A stretch of 24,960 bases of DNA, from positions 1-24,960 of IMG/VR virus record IMGVR_UViG_3300017765_000054; one strand, 5' to 3'. How positions within the stretch are numbered: position 1 is the first letter of the stretch; the number at the start of each line of letters is the position of its first letter. The stretch comes from a virus. A model generated the notes under the pieces. It saw only the letters and a program-made list of their open reading frames with translations. It was not told the DNA's origin and did not search any database. Shown piece by piece: positions 2,391 to 20,229 of the stretch. The position numbers and the translations under genes are program-made.

Positions 2391-3674
2391 TTAAGCTCCT
2401 ACATATCCAAGTGGGTTATAGTGCGAATCCGCAAATGCTTGCGGGGGTCTATCGGTTGCCCTGGCATCTTTGATACCAACCGCCAAATAACGAAAAGCAT
2501 CTGCAGCATGGCTCGACCAATCGTGAACAGGGGTGTTACGAAAACTTCTAAGTCTCTCATTGTAGGCTCGGTGATACTGCCGTAAGGCTTCGAGCCCCGG
2601 TTTTGTGAGCTCCGCATCAAACCAGCAGCGTGGTATAAGCATCTGTGCAGCATGGAGCCCATCCTCGACAGGCAGCTTTGGAACCACCCTAAAATTAATC
2701 CCTAGATCCCAGGATACCTCGCGCCGGCTCTTGCCTGAGCCCAGCTCACGAACCTCAATGTCATGCGGCGCGTTATGGCTCCCATACAAATATTCTTTTT
2801 GCTGCAAAACAGCAGCGTAATGGGGCAAGCCCTCGCCCCTGTTCTCGTAAAAATCTATGACATGCACAGCCCGGCCAACGCTTTGGGTAAACCAGATAGC
2901 CGTGCTATCGCCTATGCCCAGATCCCACCAGGTATCAACCCGGTATGCCGGGTCATATGGCACACTGCTGATGCGCCCCATTTCATGGATCTGCTGCAGC
3001 TCTTTGCCGAAAACAGCACCTGGCACATTAGCCACCCAAGAGCACTCAAATTCCTGCTGGTACTGGTCAGCTGACATCATGGACCTGGCAGCATCCAGCT
3101 CTTCTGCATCCAATATGCCGGTCTCACTGGCCTTGTGGATTGCCGTGTACCAATCGTCCTGGCTCTCAGCAGCCGTATAAAGCTCATAGAAAGCGTTGTG
3201 GCCCTTGGGTGTACCAATGAACAGCGCCTTGCCCTTACGATCGCTCAGCGCCGGCCTAATGATCTCAGGGAACAAGCTCTCCGGCATGTCAGCCATCTCA
3301 TCAAGAACGGCCATATCCAAATATATTCCACGCAGGCTGTCAGGATTCTCAGCACCCAACAGCTGTATCCTTGCACCATTAGGCAGATCACACCTCAGCT
3401 CAGTCTCATGGAACCTTGCCATTGGTATCTTGCCGGCAAACTGCTTGAGGTAATCCCAAGCAACAGCCTTAGCCTGCCGATAGGTGGGCGCTATGTAAGC
3501 ACAGCGAGGGTTGGTATGCTGGTTAAGCACAGCTTCCCTTAGCAAGTGATTAATCGCCATGACTGTCTTGCCAGCTCGGCGGTGCAGCACGACTACGCCC
3601 CAGCGCTTCTGGGACAGCTCAGAGTGGATCTGAGCCTGCAGCGGCCTTGGGGAATAGGGGATCTCAATGTTCAT
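2391..3674 (-). CDS. terL: Terminase large subunit (DNA packaging ATPase/nuclease)
   Basis: The motor ATPase that pumps DNA into the prohead and cuts it. Walker A is LHRRAGKT, Walker B is MAVLDEMAD, and the coupling motif is FIGTPKG. The nuclease half begins with DTWWDLGIGDSTAIWF, whose Asp is metal-binding, and ends near SSHAADAFRYLAVG. The product from the ATG at 3674 is about 427 residues starting MNIEIPYSPRPLQAQIH, which is where I would expect this family to begin. The frame stays open upstream to a GTG at 3791 and an ATG at 3767, so up to 39 extra residues are possible. No candidate start has a strong ribosome-binding site. The gene follows the small terminase subunit and precedes the portal, the usual podovirus packaging order. 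Confidence 0.95.
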   Translation of the reverse strand: MNIEIPYSPRPLQAQIHSELSQKRWGVVVLHRRAGKTVMAINHLLREAVLNQHTNPRCAYIAPTYRQAKAVAWDYLKQFAGKIPMARFHETELRCDLPNGARIQLLGAENPDSLRGIYLDMAVLDEMADMPESLFPEIIRPALSDRKGKALFIGTPKGHNAFYELYTAAESQDDWYTAIHKASETGILDAEELDAARSMMSADQYQQEFECSWVANVPGAVFGKELQQIHEMGRISSVPYDPAYRVDTWWDLGIGDSTAIWFTQSVGRAVHVIDFYENRGEGLPHYAAVLQQKEYLYGSHNAPHDIEVRELGSGKSRREVSWDLGINFRVVPKLPVEDGLHAAQMLIPRCWFDAELTKPGLEALRQYHRAYNERLRSFRNTPVHDWSSHAADAFRYLAVGIKDARATDRPPQAFADSHYNPLGYVGA

Positions 3675-3791
3675 TAGAGACAGGCTCTTGTCAGGGTTTA
3701 TATACGTTATAGACACAGCGCCCGGTCTTTTGGGGGGCCGGGGGTGGTCGCCAGGAAATCGAGACATTGTAAACAGGTGTGTATCCCGCAC

Positions 3792-3926
3792 CCGCTCGTA
3801 GGCTAGCCAAGCATCACAGAGCTCTGGGTCACAGCTCGGTCACAAGATCAGCTTTGTAAACTAAAATCAGGTTGACATATGCCTCGTGCGCGCGAGCCCT
3901 GCCACTGGATGACAGCACTGCACCAC
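3792..3926. other. Terminase intergenic region with tandem TGGGTCACA-type motifs
   Basis: This non-coding gap lies between the small and large terminase genes. TGGGTCACAG at 3825-3834 and TCGGTCACAA at 3836-3845 repeat with an 11-nt period. On the other strand they read CTGTGACCCA and TTGTGACCGA, close to the TTGTGACCCA pair at the attachment site. A short GC-rich dyad (CTCG-TGCGCG-CGAG) lies at about 3882-3895. Packaging-initiation sites often sit near terS in other phages, but nothing here proves that role. Confidence 0.4.
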
Positions 3927-4343
3927 TCAACCACTAGCCTGCACGTCAGCATTGCCCCAGCTCAGCGTGATCGTCCCGCTTGCCTGCTTGCTGTCCTCAG
4001 CCTTGTCTCGTAGCCCCAGTGGCTGCATCTGCCTTATGTGCTTATCCTTGTGATCTGCCTCTAGCCTACGCCTCTGTACCTCAGCCATTGCCAGCTTAGG
4101 ATCGCTTGGCAACGGTGCCTCTACCAGGTCAATGATCTGGTCACGCATGACCTCACATTGCAATGACCTGGCTATCCTATAGCTTGTGTAAGCAGCCTCA
4201 TCCTCTTGAACATGGCGCAGCACTGTCCTCCACGATGGCAGCTCGCTGTCCTCGTTGCAGATCCTGGTCAGACTGATTCCGTCAGCAATACGCTCACAGA
4301 TAATCGTCATCTGAGCTTTGGTGATGCGTCTTTTAGCCATTGC
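3927..4343 (-). CDS. terS: Terminase small subunit (Sf6 gp1-like HTH)
   Basis: From the ATG at 4343 (MAMAKRRITKAQM) the product is about 138 residues. A second ATG lies 6 nt later, and the frame is open back to 4490. The N-terminal region ICERIADGISLTRIC...SWRTVLRHVQEDEAAYTSYRIAR matches the helix-turn-helix DNA-recognition domain of small terminases like that of phage Sf6. Helical residues follow (VMRDQIIDLVEAPL, MAEVQRRRLEADHKDKH), which would form the oligomerisation region. These proteins recognise the packaging site and load the large subunit. The longer N-terminus is unlikely because it contains odd residues and covers a strong hairpin at 4357-4394 ending in CCTTTT just before this ATG. 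The gene lies directly upstream of terL in the same direction. Confidence 0.75.
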   Translation of the reverse strand, partial: AMAKRRITKAQMTIICERIADGISLTRICNEDSELPSWRTVLRHVQEDEAAYTSYRIARSLQCEVMRDQIIDLVEAPLPSDPKLAMAEVQRRRLEADHKDKHIRQMQPLGLRDKAEDSKQASGTITLSWGNADVQASG

Positions 4344-4356
4344 CATCCATAAAAGG

Positions 4357-4394
4357 CCAGCTGCCTGTTGCTCGGGTAAACAACAGACAGCCGG
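4357..4394 (-). terminator. Strong hairpin with short T-tract just upstream of terS
   Basis: Arms at 4357-4370 and 4381-4394 pair over 14 positions with one mismatch and one G-U, around a 10-nt loop. On the coding strand the hairpin is followed by CCTTTT and then the terS start. It may act as an attenuator or weak intrinsic terminator, or as a 5' UTR structure controlling terS translation. Confidence 0.5.
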
Positions 4395-4551
4395 TAAGGT
4401 TCCGTTAGGGAGAAAACAATGCGTCAGTCCCATTACAACAGAGGGTCCAACCATGCAGCGAATGAACCGCAGTCCATCTAACAGCGACATATAGTCGATG
4501 CTATTAGCAAAGCTACAATATTCGGTACATTCGCGTCAACTACCTTTACGT

Positions 4552-9435: not shown

Positions 9436-10099
9436 GCTGCCAGAATCCCTGATTGATATTTTCAAAGAGATCGGGCTTACAAAGGAACAGGCCACCTGGG
9501 ACTGCCACGGCACCCCGGTGGCTTTGCATAAAGCGTTAGAGCAAGTAGCAGCCCATCAGGGGATTACCTTTGATGCGCCGAATATCGTTGAGAGTGACCC
9601 CGCGTTGCGCTCCTGCGTTTTGATTGTTACTGGACGGCTAAAGGACAAGTCAGAGTGGTCTATCGGTGAGGCCATGCCTATAAACATCGATCGTGGGAGC
9701 CATAAACAAAGCTATCCTTACGCAATGGCAGAGAAGCGCGCCAAAGACCGCGTGATCCTCAAGCTCATTGGTGTTGCCGGGTTTGTCTATTCAGAAGCTG
9801 AGGCTGCGGCCTTTGAAGAATCAAGGCCGAACAATATATCGGGCGCACCTAAAAAAGAAACAGCAACGCCACCAGCATCTGACGATATCCCGTTTGATCA
9901 TGAGGATATGTGGGCGCAATGGGTGACAAAGCAAAAAGGCTTGATAGATGAGGCCGATAGTATTGGCGCCTGCACAGCATGGGTAAATCGTACCCGTAAA
10001 AAACGTGATGATCTAAAAGAATTTAGCCGCGAGCTGACTGCTGAGCTCAAAGATTACTACTCAGCCAAATATGACAAACTAAACAATGGAGAGAGATGA
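9428..10099 (+). CDS. Putative recombination/annealing protein (Rad52/Sak-like), tentative
   Basis: 223 residues from the ATG at 9428, with GGAGGG about 6 nt upstream; the frame is open further back to 9335 but that region is the neighbouring winged-helix gene in another frame. The core contains RSCVLIVTGRLKDKSEWSIG, a beta-hairpin, and GSHKQSYPYAMAEKRAKDRV followed by ILKLIGVAGFVYSEAEAAAF. The AMAEKRAKxRxxLxxxG segment is reminiscent of Rad52-type single-strand annealing proteins, where this helix carries DNA-binding basic residues. The C-terminus after residue 150 (TPPASDDIPFDHEDMWAQW...) is a linker plus a helical tail. With the exonuclease upstream it would make a phage recombination pair. 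The call is by analogy only. Confidence 0.45.
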   Translation: MSKLPESLIDIFKEIGLTKEQATWDCHGTPVALHKALEQVAAHQGITFDAPNIVESDPALRSCVLIVTGRLKDKSEWSIGEAMPINIDRGSHKQSYPYAMAEKRAKDRVILKLIGVAGFVYSEAEAAAFEESRPNNISGAPKKETATPPASDDIPFDHEDMWAQWVTKQKGLIDEADSIGACTAWVNRTRKKRDDLKEFSRELTAELKDYYSAKYDKLNNGER

Positions 10100-10455
10100 T
10101 GGCTCATTTTTCAAACAATAGTATCAAGCTGCGGCAGAACATGATCGCCGAGGATGCAGCTGGTCAAAAGGTAGAATACCGGGCGTCCATGTTTATCCAA
10201 TTTAAAACAAATTGGGATGACGATGCCGGCAGATATGAGCGCATGACAGAATCGCAGCAAAAGATCTGTGATGACTTTCATGCACAAATGGCAGATGCCG
10301 GTGTTGAGATTGGCTTTGTGTTCCAGAAACAAATGCCTGGTGAGACAGAGCTCAAGAATCTGCCAAAGATTATGACCGGCAAAGTCTACGTCAATAAGCG
10401 CAAGGAACAGCGGCAAGAACAGCAGCAAGAGGCAGGCGGTAATAATGGATGGTAA
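10096..10455 (+). CDS. Hypothetical early protein (119 aa)
   Basis: Tandem ATGs at 10096 and 10099 follow a GGAGAG sequence; the spacing favours the second. The first ATG overlaps the previous gene's stop in an ATGA junction. The product (MMAHFSNNSIKLRQNMIAED) has a soluble alpha/beta look with VEYRASMFIQFKTNWDDD and VEIGFVFQKQMPGETELKNLPKIMTGKVYVN. It ends in a Lys/Arg/Gln-rich tail with QRQEQQQE. I recognise no family. Position after the putative annealing protein suggests replication or recombination support, but this is only context. Confidence 0.6.
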   Translation: MMAHFSNNSIKLRQNMIAEDAAGQKVEYRASMFIQFKTNWDDDAGRYERMTESQQKICDDFHAQMADAGVEIGFVFQKQMPGETELKNLPKIMTGKVYVNKRKEQRQEQQQEAGGNNGW

Positions 10456-10642
10456 ATTTTTATATACCGTTGCTGAGGCCAGCCGTGTGCTGTGGGGTGA
10501 CGACCACAAGGCGGCTCAGCAAAAGACGCGCCGCCTAGTCAAGGCAATGGATTTGCCTGTCGTGCATATCGGGCGCAGCTGGTACATAAAACGCGACACG
10601 CTGCAGTCCGAGTTTGGCCCGGGAATGTTTGATGACGATTAA
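10445..10642 (+). CDS. Excisionase-like helix-turn-helix protein (65 aa)
   Basis: The protein MDGKFLYTVAEASRVLWGDD continues KAAQQKTRRLVKAMDLPVVHIG and ends with SWYIKRDTLQSEFGPGMFDDD. This is a MerR/excisionase-type winged HTH: YTVAEASRVLWG is the helix-turn-helix, and VVHIGRSWYIKRDTL is the wing that in other members reads 'xxxGRxxxIxxxxL'. It is the last gene of the rightward block and converges on the integrase, so it is a candidate recombination directionality factor (Xis). It could equally be a transcription regulator. It overlaps the preceding gene by 11 nt. Confidence 0.6.
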   Translation: MDGKFLYTVAEASRVLWGDDHKAAQQKTRRLVKAMDLPVVHIGRSWYIKRDTLQSEFGPGMFDDD

Positions 10643-10753: not shown

Positions 10754-11872
10754 TCAAAAGATCTTCGATATTTTATCAGCAACCTCGGCGTCACGTGCGT
10801 CATCGTCAAGCCAGTGCCCATAGATCTCTGTGGTTGTCTTGATGCTCTCATGGCCCATCAGGTTGGTGACAGTCCACCAGTCGCCGGGGAAGGCCTGCAA
10901 GAGCTTTGAGGCATAGTAGTGGCGCAAATCGTGCCACCTGATGCGCGCAACACCAGCTGCATCGCAGGCAGCGTGTATGGCCGGCAGGAACCTACTGTCT
11001 GATAGCACATGCCCCGTGCGTGACGGAAACACCAGGCCTTTGGTAGGCCGGCCCTCGGCCATCCACAGTTCTTTCATTTTCTTGGCTACGTCTGGCGACA
11101 GCGGAACCTTACGCTTACCCGCCGGCGTCTTTGTATTGCCAACGCCAGCCCGGTGTTCGATAGCTTTATTGACATCAACCTTTTTAAAGTCATGGTCAAC
11201 CAAGTCAGCCCACAGAAGAGCGCGCTGTTCGCCCTGGCGCAGGCCGGTGGTCGCTGCAAACTCAGCGCGCAGCTGCCACACAGGCGTCATGTGCGAGATG
11301 ACATTTGCAATCATGCTTGGGTTAGGTTTGACTGCCAACCCTTTACCGGCGCCCTTGGAACCCTTGGCCTTGACGCCGAGAGCCGGGTTGCTGTTACGAC
11401 AGCCAGAATCAATCGCGTGATCAAACATCAGGCGCACATTGCCCATAATGTTTTTGACTGTCTTGATTGTGCGGTCTTTCTTCAGCTGGTTCATCAGCTG
11501 CAGCTTGATCTGGCCGGCGGTCAGGTCACGCACCTTTTGGCTAGAGAGCTTGTGGTTATCTAGCGTTAGTTTAACAAAGCATCTCGCGTGGCGTTTTTTC
11601 TCCAGCATGTTAGAGCGCTTAATCTCGCCATCATCGTACTCTTTTTGGACATGGGCAACGTAGTTGTCGCACAGCTGCTTAAACGTCCAGTCCCAGGCCT
11701 GTGAGCTGGCCGGGTTGATCTCGGCTGCAACGTGCTTAGCATAGACCTTTGCCTCGGCCTTTGTTTTGAAAAATTCCTGCTTGCCTTTGTGTACCAAAGC
11801 GCGAGTGTCAACGCACCAAGAGGCTTTGCCTGCCTTAGCGCGTGAAGGATATTGGCTTACATCTATTTCCAT
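10754..11872 (-). CDS. int: Tyrosine-family integrase
   Basis: 372 residues. The protein has an arm-binding-type N-terminus (residues 1-60, KQEFFKTKAEAKVYAKHVAAE), a core-binding SAM-like domain (about 61-175), and a catalytic domain. Catalytic residues: Arg212 in TGLRQGEQRALLWADL, a beta-hairpin Lys in KTPAGKRKVPL (about 248-257), His314 and Arg317 in WHDLRHYYAS, His341 in LMGHES, and Tyr351 in TTEIYGHWL. All hallmark residues are present, so it should be active. It would insert the phage at a tRNA 3' end: a tRNA-3'-end sequence lies about 490 nt upstream at 12364-12388. The start has GGGAGA 5 nt upstream. It sits in an operon behind the 98-residue gene, transcribed from the promoter at 12229-12257. 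Confidence 0.95.
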   Translation of the reverse strand: MEIDVSQYPSRAKAGKASWCVDTRALVHKGKQEFFKTKAEAKVYAKHVAAEINPASSQAWDWTFKQLCDNYVAHVQKEYDDGEIKRSNMLEKKRHARCFVKLTLDNHKLSSQKVRDLTAGQIKLQLMNQLKKDRTIKTVKNIMGNVRLMFDHAIDSGCRNSNPALGVKAKGSKGAGKGLAVKPNPSMIANVISHMTPVWQLRAEFAATTGLRQGEQRALLWADLVDHDFKKVDVNKAIEHRAGVGNTKTPAGKRKVPLSPDVAKKMKELWMAEGRPTKGLVFPSRTGHVLSDSRFLPAIHAACDAAGVARIRWHDLRHYYASKLLQAFPGDWWTVTNLMGHESIKTTTEIYGHWLDDDARDAEVADKISKIF

Positions 11873-12257: not shown

Positions 12258-12297
12258 GACCGGGAAAGGGAAAAATCCCGCACCCACTTCATATTTC

Positions 12298-12536
12298 TTG
12301 TGACCCATTTGTGACCCAAACGCAAAAAAACCATTGCTTTCGTAATGAAAACAATGGCTTGCGTGGCGGGAGTGACGGGACTCGAACCTGTTAAAACACT
12401 GTTACATTACAGTGCCATACGTGCCACATGAGGCCACATAAAGCAATACGTAATATTTGTGTTACGTCTGATTACGCACAGTTACGTCAGGCACGAGACC
12501 CAGCTGTGACCTTGGTCACAAACAGTTTGTGACCCA
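12298..12536. other. attP: Phage attachment site (attP) with arm-type repeats
   Basis: The core at 12364-12388 reads on the minus strand as the 3' half of a tRNA: the T-loop GGTTCGAGTCC, a 3' acceptor strand, a G discriminator and CCA. The rest of the tRNA is absent, and one T-stem position is mismatched. Flanking it are three exact copies of TTGTGACCCA (12298, 12309, 12527) and a perfect dyad TGTGACC-TT-GGTCACA (12505-12520). Also present are tandem 10-bp units GTTACGTCTG/ATTACGCACA/GTTACGTCAG (12461-12490) and a GCCACAT pair 10 nt apart (12423, 12433). CACTGT/ACAGTG (12397-12414) is another dyad. These look like integrase and accessory arm sites. The host isotype is uncertain (Asp-like by G73). 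Confidence 0.7.
12324..12357 (-). terminator. Rho-independent terminator next to attP core
   Basis: On the minus strand CCATTG (12331-12336) and CAATGG (12352-12357) pair. An inner TTTC/GAAA pairs after one mismatch, with loop GTAAT. The minus-strand stem is followed by a run of seven T (plus-strand A at 12324-12330). It lies 7-40 nt past the core, so it could be carried from the tRNA gene's own terminator. It would end leftward late transcription before the integrase operon. Confidence 0.75.
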
Positions 12537-15989: not shown

Positions 15990-16483
15990 TAGCCAATCTC
16001 CTCTGCCATGATAAAGCTACAACCACGTTCCATATCCTGTGAGTTGCCATCGCCAGCACACCTATTGACGTAAACAGTGACGTTTGAATTTGTCCTCATA
16101 CCAAGTTTGTAAGTCACGCTAGACGTTGTGCTTGGCGTATCAACAAAAGCCCACATTGCGTAGTTAGGTGTTGAGTTACTGTCGGTTGAGTAATACGGAT
16201 TGTTTGGTATTGCTATTCCGCAGTTTCTATTGCCTGAGCTTGCTTGACCTATCTTTGTGCTGTTCCTAAAAAAGAACAAAGTTGAATCCCAAGCATCATA
16301 TCCTTGTTCGTGAAACAAATAGCCAGTCAACAGTATCTTGGATGAAGTTGTACTTGGAGTAATGCTCGTGGATATGTTGTTAATTGCAGTATATGTGTCG
16401 GCTGATATGCTCTGAGAAAATGTACCAGTGTAAAGCTGATAAACCTTGCCAGTGAGGCCAGACGGCCCAAGTGAAATAGCCAT
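15989..16483 (-). CDS. Tail fibre-tip/accessory beta-rich protein (164 aa)
   Basis: The protein MAISLGPSGLTGKVYQLYTG continues with Ser/Thr/Asn/Gly-rich beta-strand repeats, for example SADTYTAINNISTSITPSTT. It has KILLTGYLFHEQGYDAWDST and ends GDGNSQDMERGCSFIMAEEI. This composition fits small beta-sandwich receptor-binding domains (C1q-like) that trimerise at fibre ends. It follows the 1248-residue fibre directly (TAATG-like junction, 16483). It may provide host-receptor specificity, but no ligand-binding motif is identified. Confidence 0.6.
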   Translation of the reverse strand: MAISLGPSGLTGKVYQLYTGTFSQSISADTYTAINNISTSITPSTTSSKILLTGYLFHEQGYDAWDSTLFFFRNSTKIGQASSGNRNCGIAIPNNPYYSTDSNSTPNYAMWAFVDTPSTTSSVTYKLGMRTNSNVTVYVNRCAGDGNSQDMERGCSFIMAEEIG

Positions 16484-19400
16484 TACTTAGCCTCCATATC
16501 AGCTATTCGCTGTTCTAGTTGTTCGATTTTGCGGTGTGCGTCTTGCAGTGCCGAAACCAATATCGGTGTGATGCGTCCGTAGTCCATAGACATCATCGCA
16601 TCGTCATCATCGCCAGTGCTGACTGCCTCTGGCATGACTTTCTGCATTTCCTGTGCAATGAAGCCCATGCTGCGTGGGCCATCGGGGTCAGCCTTCCAAG
16701 CGTAGCTGACAGGGTTCATCTGCATCAGCTTGTCGGTTGCGGCTAGAGGTTCGATGTCTTGCTTGAGGCGAATGTCTGAGGTGGTGTTGTAGGTAACACC
16801 AGTTGAGTTAATTGAAATATCGCCTTTGTTTGCACTATTTCGACCAAACCAAACGATAGCACCCGTGTCTGTGCGGTTGAAGAACGCGGGGGTATTAGAC
16901 GTGCGGCTTGCTATCAAAAAGCCAGAGGGGTCTAACTCACAGCCAATGTTGAAGTTGCTGTCTGGCACTTTACCGACAGCAAAACGGCCTGAACTATCAA
17001 ACCTGCCCCGCTCATTGCCGTTAGTTACAAAGCGAACATCGTGTGAGCCTGTAAAGTGGACTTCACCCGTATGACCCGCAGTGCCTTTAAGGCGAGTTGC
17101 ATAAACAGAACCGTTAAAATAACCGTCTTTGAAACGTGCGCCACTATTGCCGATGTCTATTGCACCATCTCTACCCGAGCCATCGGTGTTGCTTGGATAA
17201 ACTTGGTCTGCGCCATCGTGAAAACGCAGTCCGGTGTCACCAGTTCCAGCAACCATATCGCCACCGATTGTGCCGATTGAGCCAACCGTTGAGCTGTCTT
17301 TTTGAAAGCGTAGAATTTCACCATCACTGGACAAACGGTTCAGATATGAGACGGTTCCACCGTTTCTTGTCCCAGCCAAAAAGCCATCAGGCCGCGCTTG
17401 GAAGCCCACATTGCCAACGCCTTCCGCTGTCTTTCCAACCAGCAGATTGCCTGACGCATCCAGTCGCATACGTTCAGATGGCGAACCAGCAGATGCAGAA
17501 GTATGAAAACTCAATGGCTCAACGGCTAAAGTTCTAATCTTCATACCGCCAGCATCTGACATTTGAATGTCTGCGCCCGAGTTGGTTGCGCCATTTGCTT
17601 GAAATAAAATCTGAGTGCCGTGTGCCGCGTTGGAGTTATCTAGCAAAACAGTGCTGAAATCACCACCGACCACAGTCAGGGGCTTTGCAGGTGACGAAGT
17701 GTTTATGCCGACTGAGCCGCCGCCAGTGATTGTTAAGCGTTGCGCTCCAGCGGTAGAGAATTTCATAGTGTCGTCTGAGTGTGCGTAGATAATCCTGCCA
17801 GCGTGGTCATTGCCATCTGTCGCATCTTGGAAATCTATGAAGCCACCATCACTGCCAGCCATTTCAATAGCAGCATAGTTTCCTGACATTCCGGCATGAA
17901 AACCAGAGGCAGCAGGGCTTACGTCTACAGCACCAGCAACGTGAAGGGCTGACAGAGGATTGCTAGTTGAAATCCCTAAGCGACCCGCTTGGCTCAATCT
18001 CATTTTCTCAGTTGAGCTGGTGGCAAAAACCATACTGTCTACACCAGATGCACGGAAAATGTATGGATTTGACGTATCGCTTGCTGCGCCACTTGACGCA
18101 AACCTCAAACCGCCATCTATTCTTGCGCCGTGAGACTGCGTGTATATTTTGGCTGAGTTGTCGTGATAAAGCGTGACTGCATCATTGGAAATAGCAGCTA
18201 TATAGTTTTCCGTTCCCGCAGTGTTTTGAAGATATAGATTATCTCCGTTAATCACTAAACTTCCGCTGCCGCTTTCTGTAATGTGGCTATTGCCGTTTGA
18301 AGCGTTATGATAAATCCGTAAATCAGTGCCAGCACCAAAGATGGCTTCATCGTTGTCGCCAAAGTTGATATCGTGTCCGTTGCTTTGCAAGTCAGCGCCG
18401 AGCTGGGGGCTGGTGTCCTCAACTACGTTACCTATGCCAGCAGTAATAGATGCCCAAGCACTGCCTGTGTAATACTTCAAAGCATTGTCTGATGTATTGT
18501 ATGCAAGATCACCTGCATCAAGGCTGCTGCTAGGATCGCTTGAGCCTACACGGTAACGCTCTGCAAAGCTGTTTACGCCACTAATGTTAGAAGCAACTGT
18601 GTTTACATTGGCTATTGATCCACCAACATTATTTACATTGGTAATAGCCCCTGCAACGGTGCTTACGTTAGATGATGCTCCGGCAACAGTTGTTACGTTA
18701 GACGCAATCCCAGCGACAGTGGTTACATTGGCTGCAATATTTTCGACAGCAGCTACATCGCTGCTAATTCCAGCTACAGCCGTTACATCACTGGATATGC
18801 CAGCCACCGTGTTTACGTTGCTAACAGCCCCAGCAACGGTAGCAAGATTGTTAACATTATTGGTGGTTGCGATTGTATTAAGGTCAGACACAAAGTCAGA
18901 GGTAGCAAGCAGATTCAAGTCTGTAACAATGTCTGATGTGGCAAGCGTGTTGATGTCACTTACGATATCGCTTGTAGCCAAAGTGTTCAGATCAGAAACA
19001 ATATCACTGGTAGCTAATGTGTTTAGATCGCTAACAATGTCAATCGTGGCTAAGGTGTTTAGGTCGCTAACGATATCGGATGTTGCCAAGGTGTTCATGT
19101 CACTTATGACATCAGTGGTGGCGAGCAATGCCATGTCGGCAATGACATCGGAATTTGCAAGCAGCGCCATGTCATCTATAACAGCTGATGCCGCTAAAGC
19201 AGAGATGTTGGAATTGGCGCCAGCTACCGTGTTAATATTTGTCTGATCGCTGCTTGATGGTTTGACATCTACCCATGCGGAGCCTGTGTAAACTTTGACG
19301 CCAGTACTTGTGTTGAAATACAAATCGCCGGCATCAAGGTTGCTGGTCGGGTCAGAGCTGGCGGCGCCATGATATTGACCTTGGAAAGTTGTGAGCGCAG

Positions 19401-20229
19401 TTTCAGCGGCGGTCTTTGCCGTTTCGGCGTCATTCTTGTGAGTTTCGGCTGTGTTGCGGTAACTAAGCGCTAGATCACGGGCAGCCTCAGAGGCTGTCTG
19501 GGCGTTGCCGGCTGCAGTAGCGCTTGACGCCGCAGCTGACGCGCTTGTGGTCGCAGACGCAGCATCAACAATCAGGTCGTATTTAGCGCTGTTGGCGTTA
19601 GTTGTCAGGGGCTGTGAGCCAGAGCTTGTGTGTGCCTCGTTGACGATAAAAATGTTATTGGTGCTAGTGTCTTTGACCAGGTCGCGCACAGCATAGCTTG
19701 TCGATGCTGCCCAATCACCTCTGTTGGTGCCGAGCTCCTGGGTGACAGATAGATTCCCAGATGCATCAAACGCAAAGACCTTGTTAGCCCGGTCTGTGGC
19801 TGACACTGTAAATTCGGAATTGGTAATGGTGTTTGTCACAGATGCTTTGATAGATCTGTCCAGCTCTTCCTGCATCTGCTGGGTGACAAAGGTTAGCCGG
19901 TCAAGCGCATCCTCATGGCTCTGCGCCGGGAACGGGTCATTCTCAACGTAGTCGGTGCCTTGTGTCAGCGTCAGCTCACGCTGGATAACAACAGTCTCGC
20001 CACTGGCCGGTATATTGCCTGAGGTGAAAACGACATTGCCGCCAGTAGCCACCCCGGCATTAGTGACCGTGTAGTGGGTGCTTATCGTTTTTAGCGTTTC
20101 TGTGCCGGCGCTAGTCCTGATAAAGACCTTTAGATCACTGTCGGCAAATATCTTGAAGGTATAGGCAAAGGTGTCCAAAGACCCGTTGCCGGAATAGCTA
20201 ACCTTATTTGCGGTGCTTGATACTGTCAT
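16483..20229 (-). CDS. Tail fibre protein, T7-type N-terminus and S74 chaperone C-terminus
   Basis: 1248 residues. Residues 1-165 (SYSGNGSLDTFAYTFKIFAD..., QSHEDALDRLTFVTQQMQEEL) match the T7 tail fibre N-terminal domain, which attaches to the tail. An Ala-rich coiled coil follows (about 225-290, ASATTSASAAASSATAAG), then nine 12-residue and nine 10-residue repeats, then beta-helix/ladder material (DLRIYHNASNGNSHI, LRLSGRL-type blocks). The last 98 residues are an intramolecular chaperone of peptidase S74 type: SDIRLKQDI with the Ser1151/Lys1156 dyad, PVSYAWKADPDGPRSMGFIA, then a coiled coil (HRKIEQLEQRIADME). The chaperone would help trimerise the fibre and then be cut off. The fibre should recognise the host surface. 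Confidence 0.93.
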   Translation of the reverse strand: MTVSSTANKVSYSGNGSLDTFAYTFKIFADSDLKVFIRTSAGTETLKTISTHYTVTNAGVATGGNVVFTSGNIPASGETVVIQRELTLTQGTDYVENDPFPAQSHEDALDRLTFVTQQMQEELDRSIKASVTNTITNSEFTVSATDRANKVFAFDASGNLSVTQELGTNRGDWAASTSYAVRDLVKDTSTNNIFIVNEAHTSSGSQPLTTNANSAKYDLIVDAASATTSASAAASSATAAGNAQTASEAARDLALSYRNTAETHKNDAETAKTAAETALTTFQGQYHGAASSDPTSNLDAGDLYFNTSTGVKVYTGSAWVDVKPSSSDQTNINTVAGANSNISALAASAVIDDMALLANSDVIADMALLATTDVISDMNTLATSDIVSDLNTLATIDIVSDLNTLATSDIVSDLNTLATSDIVSDINTLATSDIVTDLNLLATSDFVSDLNTIATTNNVNNLATVAGAVSNVNTVAGISSDVTAVAGISSDVAAVENIAANVTTVAGIASNVTTVAGASSNVSTVAGAITNVNNVGGSIANVNTVASNISGVNSFAERYRVGSSDPSSSLDAGDLAYNTSDNALKYYTGSAWASITAGIGNVVEDTSPQLGADLQSNGHDINFGDNDEAIFGAGTDLRIYHNASNGNSHITESGSGSLVINGDNLYLQNTAGTENYIAAISNDAVTLYHDNSAKIYTQSHGARIDGGLRFASSGAASDTSNPYIFRASGVDSMVFATSSTEKMRLSQAGRLGISTSNPLSALHVAGAVDVSPAASGFHAGMSGNYAAIEMAGSDGGFIDFQDATDGNDHAGRIIYAHSDDTMKFSTAGAQRLTITGGGSVGINTSSPAKPLTVVGGDFSTVLLDNSNAAHGTQILFQANGATNSGADIQMSDAGGMKIRTLAVEPLSFHTSASAGSPSERMRLDASGNLLVGKTAEGVGNVGFQARPDGFLAGTRNGGTVSYLNRLSSDGEILRFQKDSSTVGSIGTIGGDMVAGTGDTGLRFHDGADQVYPSNTDGSGRDGAIDIGNSGARFKDGYFNGSVYATRLKGTAGHTGEVHFTGSHDVRFVTNGNERGRFDSSGRFAVGKVPDSNFNIGCELDPSGFLIASRTSNTPAFFNRTDTGAIVWFGRNSANKGDISINSTGVTYNTTSDIRLKQDIEPLAATDKLMQMNPVSYAWKADPDGPRSMGFIAQEMQKVMPEAVSTGDDDDAMMSMDYGRITPILVSALQDAHRKIEQLEQRIADMEAK
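18568..18837 (-). repeat. Nine 10-residue VAGxxSNVxT repeats in the tail fibre
   Basis: A 30-nt period on the coding strand. Units read VAGAVSNVNT, VAGISSDVTA, VAGISSDVAA, VENIAANVTT, VAGIASNVTT, VAGASSNVST, VAGAITNVNN, VGGSIANVNT and VASNISGVNS. The alternating Val and Val/Ile positions suggest a trimeric fibre shaft. The DNA itself has diverged, as expected from selection on the protein. Confidence 0.85.
18868..19191 (-). repeat. Nine 12-residue TSDIVSDLNTLA repeats in the tail fibre
   Basis: A 36-nt period on the coding strand. Consensus TSDIVSDLNTLA; the first three units (ASAVIDDMALLA, NSDVIADMALLA, TTDVISDMNTLA) are most divergent. Central units are nearly identical, so this could expand or contract by slippage. 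The array also gives the long antisense open frame on the plus strand, which is an artefact. Confidence 0.85.

Follow-up and report, generated by a model that had tools for sequence, protein, structure and literature searches.

A candidate second, core-less integrase-binding site in the terL leader of uncultured marine phages

In the window, a 24,960-nucleotide stretch of viral DNA (IMG/VR record IMGVR_UViG_3300017765_000054, positions 1 to 24,960), two tandem words in the gap between terS and terL, referred to here as the slot, repeat the arm words of attP. We propose that this pair probably serves the phage's own tyrosine integrase as a second, core-less binding site, with regulation of terL or the late genes as its most likely use. 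If this is correct, the integrase would directly control packaging or late genes, and integration would thereby be coupled to the lytic programme in uncultured marine phages.

Arm-type words in the slot and at attP

The slot pair lies between the TerS stop codon (3927) and the conserved TerL start (ATG, 3672–3674, minus strand). The original prediction described it as CTGTGACCCA (3825–3834) and TTGTGACCGA (3836–3845), both on the minus strand, 11 bp apart and each agreeing with TTGTGACCCA at 9 of 10 positions, and placed exact copies of TTGTGACCCA at 12298, 12309, and 12527 (plus strand); all of these are present as described. The motif search proposed with it, run against 100 dinucleotide shuffles, gives eight matches to TTGTGACCCA with at most one mismatch in the window, compared with a mean of 1.46 and a maximum of 5 in the controls. 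The remaining near-matches are TTGTCACCCA at 9920 and 19880 (minus strand) and TTGTGACCAA at 12512 (minus strand).

The word TGTGACC occurs seven times in the window, exclusively in two intergenic places: twice in the slot (3827 and 3838, minus strand) and five times in the attP region (12299 and 12310, plus strand, and the three copies of the P arm cluster, Table 1). This count is matched in 1 of 100 shuffles. Two of the att copies, at 12505 and, inverted, at 12514, had been absent from the original prediction.

The att region adjoins the integrase gene and contains the P cluster, a tRNA gene 3′ end, which we take to be the att core, and the P′ pair; ARAGORN finds no whole tRNA at this core. 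In the window and its relatives, the 8-mers shared by slot and att are the arm words and a second element. Because the core is not seen among them, recombination at the slot is unlikely, and the slot is ruled out as a second attP. We infer that the slot holds a pair of integrase arm-type sites that lacks a recombination core.

Table 1. Coordinates of the features discussed, in window positions
Feature	Position	Strand	Remark
terL, from the conserved Met	2391..3674	-	residue 40 of the mechanical ORF 2391-3791, start GTG 3791
Second shared element GGGTGCGGGAT, slot copy	3783..3793	-	52 bp downstream of slot-pair start
Weaker third slot word CTGTGATGC	3811..3819	-	
Slot site 2, CTGTGACCC, candidate integrase arm-type word	3826..3834	-	word match; 11 bp from site 1
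Slot site 1, TTGTGACCG, candidate integrase arm-type word	3837..3845	-	word match; tracks own att arms in relatives
Conserved cos-like dyad GCTCGCGCGCACGAGGC	3881..3897	-	also in many relatives without the pair
terS, Sf6-like small terminase	3927..4490	-	PF20901
Tyrosine integrase	10754..11872	-	N-domain residues 16 (K), 25 (A), and 32 (Q) predicted to read the arm word
Second shared element GGGTGCGGGAT, att copy	12275..12285	-	
attP P′ arm pair, 2x TTGTGACCC	12298..12317	+	11 bp spacing
att core, presumed tRNA gene 3′ end	12364..12389	-	
attP P arm cluster	12503..12535	.	TGTGACC at 12505 (+), 12514 (-), 12528 (+)

On the coding strand, the features follow one another as terS stop, dyad, pair, second element, C-rich tract, TATA-like stretch, and conserved TerL start at 3674. 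The second element is also found beside the P′ pair at att, and its 9-mer GTGCGGGAT is exact at the slot and att places only; one-mismatch matches to this 9-mer show no excess over expectation in the window. Among relatives, the word of the second element differs between phages and mostly lies about 52 bp from the slot pair. When the slot and att flanks of 21 loci are compared, their longest common word surpasses every one of 30 shuffles in 13 loci and does not in the other eight (L059, L093, L094, L103, L112, L121, L124, and L136).

The third slot word also occurs in L084, L131, L133, L137, L138, L140, and L142. It may not belong to the site, since in the window, L084, and the L137 group it departs from the arm words of the same phage. 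CTGTGATGC is constant even where the arms themselves differ (window, L084, L131, L137, and L140).

Slot words, own arms, and the integrase N-terminal domain

Relatives were collected from viral contigs as the best 80 of 597 by TerL and as 7 plus the best 80 of 204 by integrase, a selection that favors close kin. A scan of genome contigs yielded 55 integrase relatives, all distant, and of 27 TerL contigs, many of which are fragments, 6 contain PF00589. Among the phage records listed, the best match to the window TerL has 56.5% identity, with HTVC010P-type pelagiphages leading. The accessible text of Mizuno et al. (PMC3861242) describes marine phage groups with integrase or att links to SAR11 and SAR116.

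The slot census comprises 105 loci; three more are too short, and L091, L106, and the loci from L220 up were excluded as duplicates. With L023 and L131 being the same contig, the recount gives 104 readable contigs. Under a fixed rule that requires two similar words at a spacing of 11 or 12 bp ahead of terL, 65 of them have a pair, whereas the same rule applied to shuffled slots finds a mean of 0.60 and a maximum of 3. The conservation in relatives that had been suggested as a check is observed, and the word follows the arms of each phage. An integrase is recognised in 34 readable contigs, of which 29 have the pair, five have neither the pair nor a dif-like site, and none has a dif-like site. 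The five without a pair by the script's rule are L052, L073, and L074, which have distant integrases, and L160 and L164, which carry tandem GGCACC and GCGACT words missed by the rule.

After near-identical copies were merged by hand, 25 lineages could be compared at both places, with the slots of L085, L095, L097, L110, and L135 taken from other loci of the same contigs. The six-letter core of the slot equals that of the phage's own att arms in 23 of the 25. Shuffling gives a mean agreement of 5.24 and a maximum of 15, and none of 200,000 shuffles reaches 23. The two mismatched lineages, L052 and L073, both have distant integrases. L142, missed by the arm script, was left out of this comparison; its arms match its slot.

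In the phages that show both places, the words vary from phage to phage and agree within each phage at slot and att: TGTGATGC in L059, TGTGACC in L093 and L110, AGGCGCC in L095 and L103, TGGCACC in L109, TGGCACA in L124, TGGCATGC in L135/L022, and AGTGACC in L137. L059, L093, and L095 are near kin, with integrases 92–100% identical to that of L059, and their slot and att words have switched together. The integrases of L109 and L110 are both 71–72% identical to that of L066, and each phage has its own word, TGGCACC or TGTGACC, matched at slot and att. In L131, att and the integrase gene are about 1.2 kb apart, and even so the slot word is present five times at att. Conversely, the 8-mer that the script takes from the slot recurs near the integrase in many loci; in L123, L124, and L130 this 8-mer is off-register and does not recur there.

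A search of 24 loci (389,806 bases) for tandem pairs of each phage's own word finds 38 at att, 24 in the slot (L137 and L138 included), and four elsewhere, compared with a mean of 0.52 and a maximum of 6 for letter-shuffled words. Own-word tandem pairs are thus almost confined to att and slot in these loci, rather than being matched many times over in coding DNA. The four pairs elsewhere belong to a single lineage (L084, L086, L088, and L089), in which one further TGTGAC pair in tandem (12 bp) lies some 2.5 kb upstream of terL. A chance origin of the words is ruled out by the shuffle controls for the window words, the arm/slot agreement, the own-word pairs, and the slot pairs.

A blind scan of alignment columns points to the integrase residues that may read the word. 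From 59 loci with a clear att consensus, 42 unique N-domains were retained. Motif position 2 has residue 25 as its top column, and position 4 has residue 32. Positions 7, 8, and 9 all point to residue 16, though at position 9 its lead is narrow and the scan explains this position weakly. At residue 32, Gln goes with T4 (16 of 16) and Arg with G4 (26 of 26). At residue 25, Tyr goes with A2 (10 of 10) and any other residue with T2 (32 of 32). At residue 16, Lys goes with C8 (19 of 20), Trp with G8 (8 of 8), and His with A8 (6 of 6), and among rarer residues Arg goes with C8 (three) or T8 (one) and Ile, Leu, and Gln with T8 (4 of 4). Position 6 differs in 4 of the 42 sequences, and its top-ranking column is residue 155, which lies outside the N-domain.

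Eighteen left-out loci were displayed and ten of these scored by eye, namely the att of L101, L102, L104, L111, L117, L119, L123, L144, and L155 and the slot of L157; L117, L123, L144, and L155 are near to loci in the code table. All nine att regions agree at positions 2 and 4, and the code holds in the L157 slot save for G2 in one of its two copies. The unscored loci are L125, L143, and L146 (no usable att), L142 (the same N-domain as L137), and L052, L161, L162, and L164 (too distant). In the L146 integrase, residue 32 is Ile instead of Gln or Arg.

Integrases 92–96% identical to that of L059 go with other arm words (L093, L095, L096, and L098), and 22 of the 47 variable positions in the L059 integrase family fall within the first 49 of 378 residues. 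The N-domain is predicted to comprise three strands in a sheet and one helix, and residues 16, 25, and 32 map to, or close to, the ends of strands 2 and 3. Searched alone against known folds by Foldseek and VIA, it gives no clear match, and a PDB profile search returns weak matches with unrelated names. The covariation suggests that the arm word is specified by the N-terminal domain of the integrase and, judged from sequence, the integrase very probably binds the slot physically. The code of residues 16, 25, and 32 is testable and could serve for the prediction of arm sites and for matching integrases to their att sites.

Proposed role of the slot pair and rival readings

In the arrangement that we propose, two integrase N-terminal, arm-binding domains would sit side by side on the slot, separated by roughly one turn of the helix, in the manner of the P′ arm of attP. 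The bound integrase would hold down, or time, the expression of terL and the late genes, and packaging would thereby be tied to the integration state. A regulatory role is the most likely one because the site, within the terL leader, keeps an almost constant distance to the TerL start. This distance is 160–179 bp in 61 of 65 contigs, 46 of which fall at 169–172 bp; in the remaining lineage, represented by four contigs (L018, L020, L137, and L138), it is 308 bp. Across 26 clusters, in a search limited to 130–190 bp, 16 have the pair at 169–172 bp, and the interval has a median identity of 50%. Mean vector lengths for helical phasing relative to cos and to terL are nearly independent of the period, and therefore we claim the tight distance alone. 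The steady spacing may reflect inertia and not selection. A role of the slot at terL expression is a tentative proposal, for which we would claim slightly less than an even chance. An extra stretch is present between slot and TerL start in the terL leader of L026, L137, L138, L018, and L020.

Besides the tight distance, regulation of terL or late expression is favored by precedents for integrases and recombinase-fold proteins as repressors. IntS of KplE1 represses its own gene and also regulates transcription through an att region, according to the portions of PMC2951348 available to us; there, unlike here, the target is the integrase promoter overlapping attL and not a late or packaging gene. 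In SPbeta, the repressor MrpR (YopR) has a tyrosine-recombinase fold and acts on repeated elements, as described in the accessible part of PMC10516654. The integrase model aligns with YopR (8bpz) with a Z score of 11.4 and an rmsd of 17.7 over 251 residues. MrpR has lost recombination, whereas the present integrase is presumed to be active, with a slot site that duplicates its own arm site.

The closest likeness for the sites themselves is the lambda-type attP, in which short direct and inverted words around the core, with pairs 11–12 bp apart, are read by the integrase N-domain. The lambda Int structures 1z1b (Z 18.3, rmsd 10.0, 307 aligned residues) and 1z1g (Z 17.7, rmsd 10.3, 311 aligned residues) both align with the integrase model along its length. 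Unlike in lambda, one core-less pair is separated from attP by 8.5 kb and lies in the terL leader, and the arm word is hypervariable between near kin. Searches of a partial set of open-licence papers listed none that describes integrase arm sites at a terminase gene, a comparable residue code of the arm domain, or a dif site in the slot.

The main rival to regulation is a direct role at cos: the slot-bound integrase would act on packaging by covering or bending the cos region, stopping terminase from cutting DNA due for integration or excision. This role is possible because the slot is near the cos-like dyad, and we regard it as unlikely, though worth serious consideration. The dyad is GC-rich and is found in most loci read, including loci without the pair. 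In 52 distinct slots, the pair starts 50–69 bp from the dyad start (a group at 50–52, one at 57, and the rest at 60–69), and two contigs terminate within the dyad, L090 with its right end and L004 with its left end after nine unmatched bases. Such ends would suit cos, and the dyad is a candidate cos site. However, the dyad–pair distance is more spread than the distance of the pair to the TerL start, and the small terminase belongs to the Sf6 family, whose members serve headful packaging.

Alternatively, the slot could be a decoy or an architectural site that supplies extra intasome arm sites by looping, with no regulation. The presence of arm-type words alone, with no recombination core seen, would fit this idea; its near-fixed place and spacing in the terL leader of diverged clusters would be unexpected for a decoy, and we consider it improbable.

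Other rivals concern the protein that reads the words. The original prediction envisaged one binding protein for both places, be it the integrase, TerS, or a host factor. A shared reader is upheld by slots and arms changing together, and the residue code selects the integrase from among these candidates, leaving TerS and a host factor disfavored. Another phage protein, such as an excisionase (RDF) of the Cox/Apl kind, might read both places, with the integrase merely co-travelling. The RDFs of P2 and 186 provide a precedent, with tandem binding sites both at att and at promoters, and the window encodes an HTH_17-like protein (10445–10642) that scores below the Pfam cut-off. Against this, single residues of the integrase N-domain predict single bases, perfectly so at residue 32, and a TTACG repeat (12462–12486) is the better candidate for RDF sites; we consider this reading improbable as well. 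TTACG is present in three copies, each 10 bp from the next, in the stretch that separates the P arm from the att core, and these copies are possible excisionase sites.

A small terminase could be expected to bind tandem sites next to a cos-like dyad in the gap that separates the terminase genes, and cosB of lambda offers a comparison; the slot words would then be cosB- or pac-like TerS sites and the likeness at attP would stem from TerS. We judge this very improbable: the TerS proteins of L059 and L093 are 100% identical over 132 aa and go with different motifs, each matched at att and slot, those of L121 and L130 are 94.9% identical over 138 aa and their motifs differ, and the motif tracks integrase residues. 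A conserved host factor of the CRP or IHF kind is rejected because the motif differs between phages whose integrases are 92–96% identical, the word not being constant among the near kin L059, L093, and L095; a CRP-like reading of the inverted pair at att (TGTGA-N6-TCACA) was likewise dropped, as word and spacing differ in L059.

dif-like sites in the slots of relatives without a recognised integrase

In some relatives in which no integrase is found, the slot contains a dif-like XerCD site instead of the pair. Scored against the E. coli dif, 18 of 18 arm positions match in seven loci, 15–17 in six more, and 14 in L026, which was classed as having neither site. The 105 readable slots, with the L023/L131 contig counted twice, divide into 66 with a pair, 13 with a dif-like site, 26 with neither, and none with both. 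A score of 14 of 18 is also reached, presumably fortuitously, within coding sequences of L064, L066, and L106.

The dif-like slot sites occur in either orientation, 124–368 bp from the TerL start, in contrast to the tight distance of the pairs. They neighbor the cos-like dyad, and the contigs that carry them have tailed-phage terminase genes (L041, L042, L049, L054, L057, L063, L083, L239, and others), and two pattern scans find dyad and dif-like site together in nine contigs, four of which are among the loci already collected. No PF00589 integrase is found in the seven such records searched, the longest of which has 37,240 bases, the others being fragments.

The dif-like site in the slot suggests how integrase-less relatives may integrate. 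It resembles the sites of elements that use XerCD and dif (IMEX, such as CTXphi), which the available text of PMC5357621 and PMC2731167 describes as filamentous phages or islands, whereas the contigs here carry tailed-phage terminase genes. As a broader and rather doubtful extension, the slot could be a site for whichever recombinase integrates the phage. Insertion at a XerCD dif would cut terL from terS and cos, arm pairs would achieve the same by occupancy, and packaging or the late operon would read the integration state. The arm specificity, set by about three residues, would then diversify fast, as immunity operators do, so that related prophages are not cross-regulated.

Among 385 alphaproteobacterial genomes, 20 have a TerL relative, at most 56% identical; their short TerL loci contain neither a dif-like site nor an 11-bp pair; among these loci, L257 has one 12-bp repeat, and L255 and L260 have a TCGCGCGC word. 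The terminase stretches (3.7–5.2 kb) of HTVC010P, HTVC034P, HTVC028P, and the Methylophilales phage Venkman contain no dif-like site and no dyad near terL, their best dif scores being 13–14 of 18, outside any slot. Pelagibacter ubique is given as being without dif/Xer in the accessible part of PMC2731167, where an Agrobacterium dif is also printed that a second type of our dif-like sites resembles. Elsewhere in the window, a 1248-aa ORF (16483–20229) has internal repeats of the kind ATSDIVSDLNTL.
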